Shown: positions 12,621 through 15,556 of the stretch, piece after piece
How the letters are laid out: the number at the start of each line of letters is the position of its first letter
Position numbering within the stretch: the stretch's first letter is position 1
DNA from: Sutcliffiella horikoshii
GTDB lineage: Bacteria; Bacillota; Bacilli; Bacillales; Bacillaceae_I
Assembly: GCA_001636495.1 (NCBI GenBank)
Contig: KV440964.1
Location: forward strand, 2,248,666-2,312,665
Reading direction: 5' to 3'
DNA length: 64,000 nucleotides
Translations under genes and position numbers: made by a program
The notes under the pieces: generated by a model
Told to the model about the DNA's origin: nothing
Databases searched by the model: none
The model's input: only the letters and a program-made list of their open reading frames with translations

Positions 12621-12649
12621 GTGACTTTCAAAAGTGTATCAATTATAAT
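12621..12649 (+). promoter_or_regulatory. Sigma-A promoter of the attenuator leader
   Basis: GTGACT (12621-12626), spacer 17, perfect TATAAT (12644-12649). Expected transcription start is near 12656, giving a leader of about 380 bases before the MutS2-like gene. Confidence 0.7.
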
Positions 12650-12681
12650 GGATATATCTTCAAACAGAAGGAGTTTGTTTT

Positions 12682-12705
12682 ATGGAAAAGGTAGTTCTTA
12701 ACTAA
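12682..12705 (+). CDS. Leader peptide uORF, MEKVVLN
   Basis: ATG at 12682 follows AAGGAG with 8-base spacing and is about 26 bases downstream of the predicted transcription start. It encodes seven residues and then TAA. Its 3' half is exactly complementary to a downstream leader segment, so translation or ribosome stalling here would change RNA folding. I do not know the stalling signal; the peptide does not match the erm leader motif IFVI. Confidence 0.6.
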   Translation: MEKVVLN

Positions 12706-12900
12706 ACGTAATCAAATACGTGCGATATGAGAGAAAAGTTCGACAAAGTCGAGCTCTGTTTGAGTACGCTTTTTTTCTCATAGCGAAATGTTAAGAACAC
12801 GGGTTTGCGCCTGCTCCATAAAATGATAGTTACAGCATGAGTATAGGTATTTATTTATTTATTTGCCTATCCTGCATTCAAATTTCAAACTACCATTCAA

Positions 12901-12936
12901 AACGCAAAGGACGAGTGTTGTTCTTTGTGTTTTTTT
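12901..12936 (+). terminator. Attenuator terminator before the MutS2-like gene
   Basis: A 12-bp stem with wobbles (AACGCAAAGGAC, 12901-12912, against 12920-12931), a 7-nt loop and seven Ts (12930-12936). It lies 100 bases before a gene on the same strand and downstream of that gene's only visible promoter, so it must be read through for expression. Confidence 0.8.
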
Positions 12937-13035
12937 ATATGTAAATATAGTTACGGCCCTGCTCTTACCATTTCCTCGCACGGTTTTAGTGGCTGCATCC
13001 ACAAACTCCTTACTAATTACTAGGAGGAAAAAACA

Positions 13036-14967
13036 ATGAATAACGAAACAATTAAAGCTTTACAATTTACCGATTTAAAGAAAGACGTGGCAGCCCTTGC
13101 TCTCTCAGAACCAGGGAAAAAAGCCGTATTGGCATTGGAACCATCCCTTAATAAAAGACAGATTGAAGCATGGTTAAATGAAGTCACAGAAGGAAAGAAG
13201 ATTCTCGCCATAAGTTCAAGCGTGCCGATCCATGGCTTACAAGGGATTGAATACATTCTCAAAAATCTCCACAAAGGAATTGCATTCAGACCTGATCAGC
13301 TGATGGGATTATATGATTTCTTGGATACCATTGAAAAACTGAAGCGGTTTATGAAAGACAAAGAATTTGCAGCGCCTGTTATCACGAGCTACATGTATTC
13401 TGTTGTGGAGCTATCTCACGTGTCGGAAGAAATCATCCGTTGCATTCGAAACGGGAGGGTGGATGATTACGCAAGCAAAGAGCTGCTGAAGGTTAGAAAG
13501 CAGATTTCCACATTGGAGGAACGAATAAAGAACCGCATCGAGCAATTGGTCAAGTCGAGCAAATACAGTAAATATCTTCAGGAAAGTTTATTTAGCACTA
13601 GAAATGGCAGATATGTTGTCCCTGTTAAAAAAGAATATAAAAATAATATAAAGGGTGTTGTGCTGGATGTTTCTGCTTCAGGATCCACCGTGTTCATGGA
13701 GCCAGAGGAAATCAGTATCATGCAAGATTCCATCAGTGTTCTGAAGTACCAGGAAGAGGCGGAAGAGGAGCAGATTCTGTTTGCTTTAACCGGCTTGGTC
13801 CAGGAGCATGAAAAAGAAATCAAACTGGCAATGGATTTGATGGTCAGTTATGATGTTATTTTTGCAAAGGCGAAGCATAGCTTATTGTTGGGTGGAACGT
13901 CACCTCAGATGAATGAACACCATGTCATACGATTAGCCGGGGCAAGACATCCTTTACTTGGAAAAAACGCTGTGCCTTTAGATCTGATAATAGGTGAGGA
14001 CTATGATGCACTTGTCATAACTGGTCCGAACACTGGTGGGAAAACGGTCACCATTAAAACGGTGGGACTCCTGACGTTGATGGCTCAGTGTGGAATGCAC
14101 ATCCCTGCTGAACAAGGAAGCGAGATTGCCATCTTTCACAAGGTGCTTGTGGACATCGGGGACGGTCAGAGTATCGAGCAGTCATTGAGTACGTTCTCTT
14201 CCAGAGTGAAAAATATCATTGAAATTTTGGCGGAGTCCACACCGCAAACGCTGGTGCTCTTGGATGAGCTGGGTTCCGGAACAGATCCAGCAGAAGGGAT
14301 GGGTCTCGCTACCTCCATCTTAGAAGAGCTATATAATAAGGGAACGACGATGCTTGCCACAACCCACTACAGTGAAATCAAGGAATTCGCAAATGAGCAG
14401 GAGGGATTCTGCAACGGCTCCATGGAATTCGACGTGGACACCCTAAAACCAACGTACCGCCTAATCGTTGGAGAAGGAGGAAGCAGCCAGGCCTTTGCCA
14501 TTGCATTGCGACTTGGCATGCACCCTAAGTTAATAGAACGAGCACACGAAATAACTTATAAAGAAACAGTAGATTACAGCGAAAAAACGGATAGGCCAAA
14601 GCATGAACTCGAGAGGCAGCTTGCGATGAACCGTAAGTATGTCAGAAAGATGAAGCATCCGGAAAAAGAGAAGACAAAACAAGAGATTATTTTTAAAAAG
14701 GGGGACAATGTAAGGATACCATCCATTGGTGAGTTCGGAATCGTTTATAAACCGGCAGATGATAAGGGGGATTTGGAGGTTCTAGTGAAAGGGCGGATGG
14801 AAACTTTCAACCATAAGCGACTATCTCTTTATATCAAATCGGAAGACTTATACACCGATGACTACGACATGGATATTGTGTTTGAATCGAAAGAAAACCG
14901 GAAGCTCCGAAATAAGATGAAGAAGCATCATGTGGATGAGGTTATTTTTGAAGAGTCGGACGACTGA
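13036..14967 (+). CDS. MutS2-like ATPase without Smr domain
   Basis: A 643-residue MutS-family ATPase of the MutS2 branch. N-terminal residues 1-300 form the helical core and clamp region. The ATPase follows, with Walker A GPNTGGKT (330-337), signature region IEQSLSTFSSR (380-390), Walker B LVLLDELGSGTDP (406-418) and switch His444 in ATTHYSEIKE. A KOW-like beta domain is visible at about 555-600 (GDNVRIPSIGEFGIVYK). MutS2 is usually about 780 residues with a long coiled coil and a C-terminal Smr nuclease domain; here the coiled coil is cut to about 35 residues and Smr is absent. MutS2/RqcU splits collided ribosomes in B. subtilis, so a ribosome role is plausible. Start site AGGAGG. Expression is probably governed by the leader and terminator upstream. 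Confidence 0.88.
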   Translation: MNNETIKALQFTDLKKDVAALALSEPGKKAVLALEPSLNKRQIEAWLNEVTEGKKILAISSSVPIHGLQGIEYILKNLHKGIAFRPDQLMGLYDFLDTIEKLKRFMKDKEFAAPVITSYMYSVVELSHVSEEIIRCIRNGRVDDYASKELLKVRKQISTLEERIKNRIEQLVKSSKYSKYLQESLFSTRNGRYVVPVKKEYKNNIKGVVLDVSASGSTVFMEPEEISIMQDSISVLKYQEEAEEEQILFALTGLVQEHEKEIKLAMDLMVSYDVIFAKAKHSLLLGGTSPQMNEHHVIRLAGARHPLLGKNAVPLDLIIGEDYDALVITGPNTGGKTVTIKTVGLLTLMAQCGMHIPAEQGSEIAIFHKVLVDIGDGQSIEQSLSTFSSRVKNIIEILAESTPQTLVLLDELGSGTDPAEGMGLATSILEELYNKGTTMLATTHYSEIKEFANEQEGFCNGSMEFDVDTLKPTYRLIVGEGGSSQAFAIALRLGMHPKLIERAHEITYKETVDYSEKTDRPKHELERQLAMNRKYVRKMKHPEKEKTKQEIIFKKGDNVRIPSIGEFGIVYKPADDKGDLEVLVKGRMETFNHKRLSLYIKSEDLYTDDYDMDIVFESKENRKLRNKMKKHHVDEVIFEESDD

Positions 14968-15330: not shown

Positions 15331-15348
15331 ATGTTGAGGTTGCTGTTG

Positions 15349-15556
15349 TGACGGGATTGTTGACTGTTATGCCGGGATTTTTTAGTATTATGAAGGGATT
15401 ACACGGAGTTGTGAAGGGTTTTCCCCTCCTTGTGACGGGATTGTTTGTCGGGGATATCCTCCAGTTAAATAGAGAACCCGAAAAACGGTCAGTTGTGACG
15501 GGATTTCCTCTTTTTATGAAGGGATTAGCCAATCAAGTGACGGGTTTTTCCTCAAA
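15349..15556. repeat. Array A: 21-bp phased repeat, core TTRTGAMGGGATT
   Basis: Ten consecutive 21-base registers start at 15349, 15370, 15391, 15412, 15433, 15454, 15475, 15496, 15517 and 15538. Eight begin with TGACGGG, TGAAGGG or TGCCGGG, mostly followed by ATT and preceded by TTA or TTG; registers 6 and 7 are degenerate but keep the phase exactly. The remaining ~8 bases vary. It lies between the lipoprotein terminator and the 3' end of the convergent subtilase. The 21-base period is two helical turns. It creates a false open frame with a heptad peptide pattern but has no start site. Confidence 0.8.

Follow-up and report, generated by a model that had tools for sequence, protein, structure and literature searches.

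We describe here a leader that quite probably works as a ribosome-mediated transcription attenuator of the vmlR/hflXr/msrD kind, found in a stretch of 64,000 nucleotides of DNA (the window), and that would control a MutS2-derived ribosome-rescue factor, a MutS2 counterpart of HflXr. Comparison among genomes strongly supports an attenuator logic in which a helix made with a short upstream open reading frame (uORF), an antiterminator and a terminator would compete. If true, this would constitute a second and independent HflXr-like case, built on MutS2. In this sense, the gene is predicted to answer to translation inhibitors, the uORF becomes a new candidate arrest peptide, and other genes sharing the sensor are pointed out. 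A wider reading, for and against which we see about equal weight, would be that a widespread drug-inducible ribosome-rescue ATPase family derives from MutS2 and that a new class of sensor peptide (seven codons, M..xVLN*) controls acetyltransferases and an enzyme resembling polyamine synthases as well, with one arrest peptide reporting a natural ribosome inhibitor to several defences. A literature search covering few subscription papers and preprints found no account of attenuation at a MutS2 gene or of these peptides, in agreement with an earlier sequence-only reading of this DNA, which knew of no described case in the MutS family.

Leader anatomy and distribution

The elements of the leader and the gene behind it are the following:

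12621..12649, plus strand: sigma-A-type promoter GTGACT-17-TATAAT, consensus score 10/12, also in relatives
12668..12673, plus strand: Shine-Dalgarno of the uORF, AAGGAG (sequence reading; alignment of 14 relatives)
12682..12705, plus strand: uORF of seven codons, MEKVVLN*, ATGGAAAAGGTAGTTCTTAACTAA, same length and type in relatives
12694..12702, plus strand: left arm of P0, the anti-antiterminator helix, GTTCTTAAC, equal to uORF codons 5-7 (fold and comparison)
12706..12721, plus strand: small hairpin ACGTAATCAAATACGT, directly 3' of the uORF stop (fold; alike hairpins in the alignment of relatives, by eye)
12723..12786, plus strand: large internal hairpin, ends approximate (fold; TTNTTT between the P0 arms in 83/94 loci)
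12790..12798, plus strand: right arm of P0, GTTAAGAAC (fold and comparison)
12793..12809, plus strand: antiterminator strand, with AAGAAC at 12793-12798 (partner GTTCTT) and TTTGCG at 12804-12809 (partner CGCAAA)
12903..12908 and 12920..12925, plus strand: terminator arms CGCAAA and GTTCTT
12899..12936, plus strand: intrinsic terminator with U tract, stem to 12933 (terminator scan; terminators in relatives)
13022..13027, plus strand: Shine-Dalgarno of the gene, AGGAGG (sequence reading)
13036..14967, plus strand: SMR-less MutS2 paralog of 643 aa, Walker A and B intact, with a KOW-like C-terminal barrel

The promoter, the seven-codon frame behind its Shine-Dalgarno site, the nine complementary pairs between GTTCTTAAC and GTTAAGAAC and the two terminator arms with their partners TTTGCG and AAGAAC had all been proposed in the sequence-only reading, and each was found again at these positions. 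The leader of the window folds at -80.8 kcal/mol (z = -5.1), a value equalled by 0 of 200 shuffles; the Shine-Dalgarno site of the gene falls outside both folded stretches. When only the window is scanned, the counts lie close to chance, with 2 promoters found versus 2.6 expected and 2 terminators versus 0.8, and no Rfam family matches the whole window at gathering scores. The excess over chance for the leader elements comes from relatives and not from window scans: a promoter of at least 10/12 is present in 68 of 94 related loci versus 3.7% of shuffles. Downstream of the gene (window 15340-15545), imperfect repeats of the GTGACGGGATT / ATGAAGGGATT type were observed by eye.

A paralog match at E <= 1e-130 was found in 173 of the 397 sampled genomes of the order, belonging to 49 of 135 genera; this limit was chosen in view of the canonical copies in the family, whose best score is 8.1e-125, and paralog lengths were checked among the matches listed, down to about 4e-151. 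Within the genus, the gene lies in one frame in 14 of 16 genomes, G010 has it in two frames and G003 (80% complete) is without it. The exact helix pattern, GTTCTTAACTAR-N65-95-GTTAAGRAC, occurs in 115 of the 397 genomes (35 of 135 genera), and its reversed control at one site in the same genomes. Nearly all of its sites (114/119) lie on the strand of the paralog and no more than 1200 nt upstream of it. Of the five remaining sites, three (G198, G062 and G204) are paralog sites read on the opposite strand, one precedes a frame-broken paralog (G133), and the second site of G189 precedes a GNAT gene.

Among the matches listed, the exact pattern is retained in 114 of 131 genomes with a group-A-type paralog (group B is described below). 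Eight of the 17 pattern-less genomes deviate in sequence or spacing (G002, G088, G191, G215, G281, G301, G389 and G396), G206 (locus L092) has diverged, G209 shows the uORF only, in a codon-degenerate search, and seven belong outside the set read (G190, G238, G260, G320, G340, G359 and G377). The 111 loci read, picked for spread, comprise 99 of group A and 12 of group B. By a letter rule, the full element is present in 94 of the 99 group-A loci, the exceptions being L119, with a longer spacer, L126 and L127, which read MLSVILN, the diverged L092, and L095, whose leader runs past the 700-nt upstream limit and whose site is present in the exact-pattern search. The leader is absent from all 12 canonical mutS2 loci checked, out of the 17 copies listed for the family, and the helix pattern has 0 matches in viral contigs.

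The uORF helix and the proposed switch

The start codon lies 12 nt before the helix in all 94 loci. Codon 5 is GTT in 94, codon 6 CTT in 93, codon 7 AAC in 92 and the stop TAA in 93, and the frame of seven codons is kept while codons 2-4 vary; codon 4 is Val in 70 loci, with all four codons used, and otherwise Ala (11), Ser (4), Ile (3), Thr (3), Asn (2) or Tyr (1). As the letter rule behind this set admits almost only changes that keep pairs, which partly predetermines the pair count, the P0 count was repeated with uORFs chosen by their peptide alone. Such a uORF is present in 97 of 99 group-A loci and all nine P0 pairs in 95 of these 97, while in the reversed-arm control a full partner appears in 1/97; L126 and L127 lose the outermost pair. 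Among the variants of P0, GTTAAGGAC occurs five times and GTTCTTGAC, GTTTTTAAC and GTTAAGAAT (G-U pairs) once each; a further variant, in L139, is changed on both sides, which constitutes a compensatory double change. A second compensatory change, synonymous and with Leu kept, occurs in L218, from a genome of another class (uORF VLEVVLN). In the aligned 59 of the 94 loci, under the same letter rule, the nine pairs show no broken cell. The co-variation that the sequence-only reading had suggested looking for in homologous leaders is present. A codon-degenerate search recovered the uORF in 97 of 397 genomes, 95 with GTTCTTAA, and one site in the reversed control; the use of GTTCTTAA in 95 of 97 despite the degenerate search indicates that RNA pairing largely fixes codons 5-7, and for this reason sensing by the nascent peptide is not proven. 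An RLR motif such as that of hflXr is absent from the uORF.

In the switch that we propose, a uORF translated and released without stalling would let codons 5-7 pair with GTTAAGAAC, and P0 so formed would hold the antiterminator strand, so that transcription would stop at the terminator. A ribosome stalled on the uORF would free the strand from GTTAAGAAC to TTTGCG; TTTGCG would then capture CGCAAA, the 5' terminator arm, while the 3' arm is still to be transcribed, and AAGAAC would subsequently capture GTTCTT, resulting in readthrough into the gene. The arrest of MsrDL at termination (PMC10314930) may serve as model for a seven-codon uORF. By analogy with vmlR, hflXr and msrD, an antibiotic is the most likely inducer of stalling. 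An elongation inhibitor acting at the tunnel or the PTC would best fit a uORF of this length, given the arrest of MsrDL at its stop codon, and the shorter uORFs of 3-4 codons that the literature describes for lincosamide/pleuromutilin-type ABC-F genes provide a mild argument in the same direction. Codon 5 could be within reach of an initiating ribosome too, hence initiation drugs could act as well.

Between helix and gene, each of the 94 leaders carries one or more U-run hairpins that reach -7 kcal/mol or lower, and 69 carry at least two; a stricter terminator test is passed by 63 of 94 leaders versus 5 of 282 shuffles. Among 39 representatives of the 94, less than 75% alike, the antiterminator strand pairs with its own terminator at -14.22 kcal/mol versus -12.09 (sd 0.42) with foreign ones, and 0 of 10,000 permutations were as good. 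This excess is weaker without the GTTAAGAAC part (313 of 10,000 permutations), and own terminators take first place in only 4 of the 39 rows and in none of the 39 columns. In Sutcliffiella relatives the terminator arms show, by eye, two changes from G-U to Watson-Crick pairs and one mismatch. When nascent RNA to 12916 is folded, TTTGCG:CGCAAA forms if the uORF is covered and P0 if it is uncovered. In the full-length fold, even a covered uORF leaves the terminator ahead of the antiterminator by 11.4 kcal/mol, which means that the switch has to be kinetic. The motif TTNTTT between the P0 arms exceeds, with its 83 of 94 loci, the mean of 24.9 in mononucleotide shuffles, and excluding its homopolymer form the counts are 67 loci versus 19.1; it is the NusG pause motif that PMC9226507 and PMC10314930 report in the vmlR and msrD leaders. 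In L017 about 190 extra repeat-like bases separate the terminator from the ribosome-binding site, and the gene behind is in two frames.

The sequence-only reading had assigned the leader to the logic of erm and ABC-F leaders. The attenuator logic is upheld by genome comparison, but the nearest models are the transcription attenuators of vmlR, hflXr and msrD rather than erm. The vmlR leader of B. subtilis (PMC9226507) shares with ours a uORF-containing anti-antiterminator, a TTNTTT pause hairpin, an antiterminator and an intrinsic terminator, whereas it has a 3-codon uORF (MIN) and an ABC-F effector and also hides the Shine-Dalgarno site of its gene. The msrDL leader, MYLIFM* (PMC10314930), is likewise a very short uORF with a UAA stop, transcription attenuation and TTNTTT, although of six codons, of other sequence and with an ABC-F effector. 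The hflXr (lmo0762) leader of Listeria, rli80 (PMC6310831), resembles ours in that a uORF-controlled terminator precedes an additional gene for a ribosome-splitting factor, of which the genome has a further copy at another place, and differs in its HflX effector and in its 14-codon uORF with RLR, against a MutS2-derived effector and seven codons M..xVLN here. The same report showed that a duplicate of this kind can act as a resistance gene when an antibiotic leader controls it. A uORFC-6-1 motif has been described upstream of hflX, mostly in Bacillales, in a paper whose main text does not contain 'mutS' (PMC8632094).

The SMR-less MutS2 paralog

The gene at 13036-14967 is an extra, SMR-less paralog and not the housekeeping MutS2; canonical MutS2 and MutS1 are encoded elsewhere in the same genome. 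The sequence-only reading had called it MutS2-like, a family assignment that stands and to which the nature of the copy is now added: the NCBIfam MutS2 equivalog (TIGR01069) scores 622.9 bits versus a cut-off of 400, with only model positions 1-536 of 790 covered. Residues 2-552 align to B. subtilis MutS2 (7qv3), the core being about 39-40% identical, and the 12 best Foldseek matches are all MutS2 structures. Walker A reads GPNTGGKT in 99/99 group-A loci and Walker B of the window LLDELGSG. The paralog stops where canonical copies run on into the SMR domain, which is absent, and the uS10-binding QxxILK is replaced. The predicted model has KOW-like strands at 558-592 (block pLDDT 74-85, whole-model mean 76.6), and a C-terminal tail ELYP.DYD...KHVEG is present in most of the sequences compared. 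A FastTree tree was computed on the 128 sequences that remained after ten near-identical ones had been dropped. In it the SMR-less paralogs, 95 from group A and 13 from group B, cluster in a single clade (support 0.957), and 12 canonical copies and seven MutS2-like proteins from other phyla or classes fall outside it; of these seven, three have frames of only 652-663 aa.

With B. subtilis MutS2 (PMC10897456; 7qv3) the paralog shares the core/clamp/ATPase fold and intact Walker A and B motifs, and differs in lacking SMR and QxxILK and in its shortened linker, its own C-terminal tail and the presence of the leader. The same report describes that B. subtilis without MutS2 is erythromycin-sensitive and that MutS2 splits stalled ribosomes. 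Since SMR and QxxILK are missing, binding of collided ribosomes as in MutS2 cannot be assumed for the paralog. Its product, an ATPase derived from MutS2 and devoid of SMR, probably splits stalled ribosomes or clears them. The annotations given to two named copies, 'endonuclease MutS2' and 'DNA mismatch repair protein MutS', hide their nature.

The same sensor before other genes

A search of the class found the pattern in 21 of 299 genomes, 8 of them of the order of the window; behind it, 6 of the 13 out-of-order genomes carry a MutS2-like gene (L173, L180-L184). In six genomes of one family (L174-L179) a MSVCVLN leader is followed by a 390-aa protein which, as read in L188, is BpsA_C, sequence-related to N(4)-bis(aminopropyl)spermidine synthase structures; the L188 leader DNA has no match in plasmids. 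G656 has MFVVVLN upstream of two GNATs, and G189 has MKVVVLN, with a TTG start, upstream of a 193-aa GNAT; none of the GNATs behind the sensor reaches an NCBIfam cut-off. These loci are:

L188:620-2102: MSVCVLN leader and BpsA_C (branched-chain polyamine synthase-like) gene, a surprising one to find behind this kind of leader, also in L174-L179
L160:6637-7448: seven-codon leader before one GNAT acetyltransferase gene
L186:614-1907: seven-codon leader before two GNAT acetyltransferase genes in a row

The sensor thus stands before three kinds of gene, MutS2-like, GNAT and BpsA-like, and its presence before the latter two suggests that it reads a signal and not MutS2 itself. This bears on other explanations of the leader. 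In one of them the leader senses the rescue state: ribosomes on the uORF would stall of their own accord or in response to general stress, and their clearance by the MutS2-like protein would close a feedback loop that needs no drug. The splitting of stalled ribosomes by MutS2 (PMC10897456) and the suppression of induction through its own leader by ectopic MsrD (PMC10314930) are in its favour. The occurrence of the same leader before GNAT and BpsA-like genes makes such a loop unlikely, although it would be compatible with drug sensing. We know of no ribosome-clearing role for GNAT or BpsA-like genes. The acetyltransferases and the BpsA_C protein would rather suit a uORF at which arrest of the nascent chain reads a small molecule other than a ribosome antibiotic, such as a polyamine or a peptide containing one; we consider this quite unlikely, as 114 of the 119 sites in the order precede a MutS2-like gene and the GNATs reach no NCBIfam cut-off.

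Codons 4-6, often Val-Val-Leu, are reminiscent of classical amino-acid attenuation, by which the leader would sense a shortage of branched-chain aminoacyl-tRNA. Yet codon 4 is Val in only 70 of 94 loci, codons 5-7 are explained by RNA pairing and the genes behind the leader are not biosynthetic, so we give this explanation very little credit. Least probable of all would be an ordinary upstream terminator within a conserved structured RNA, without switching by uORF translation: terminators are indeed found in 94/94 leaders, but the seven-codon frame is kept despite varying codons 2-4 and the start codon keeps its 12 nt to the helix in every one of the 94 loci. The drug-responsive attenuator described above remains our preferred reading.

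Beyond the order, MSVNVLN and MTTGVLN were found in two Paenibacillus records and, in Acetoanaerobium (Clostridia), MSVIVLL with the helix TCTTTTAT/ATAAAAGA. The uORF of Cytobacillus spongiae is MLGVVLN. A search of the phylum with the C-terminal tail matched 12 of 199 genomes, our own included, and upstream DNA was read for nine of the other 11. A seven-codon uORF is present in five of these nine (L210 MSESVIN, L211 MSESVTN, L213 MSASVQI, L216 MLVTVLN and L218 VLEVVLN); L212 has a nine-codon MSEVVHYRL. Among these loci, from outside the class, L210 and L211 keep their seven codons with the 9-bp helix absent, and the upstream DNA of L214, L215 and L217 holds no such uORF.

In group B, with paralogs at about 42% identity, 10 of the 12 loci carry a different seven-codon uORF (MSAVGSK, MSAVGTK, MSAIGSN or MSGVVSK) and 9 of 12 contain ACCTATGAAGATACCTAC, perhaps a parallel attenuator with other sequence. 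In L145-L154, the MSAVGSK-type uORF lies about 330-600 nt upstream of the gene, and GTAGGT/ACCTAC complementarity is seen in most of them. On the minus strand of the helix in L180-L183, the four pattern-matching genomes of their genus, a Shine-Dalgarno site and a seven-codon MISAVLN frame were also observed.
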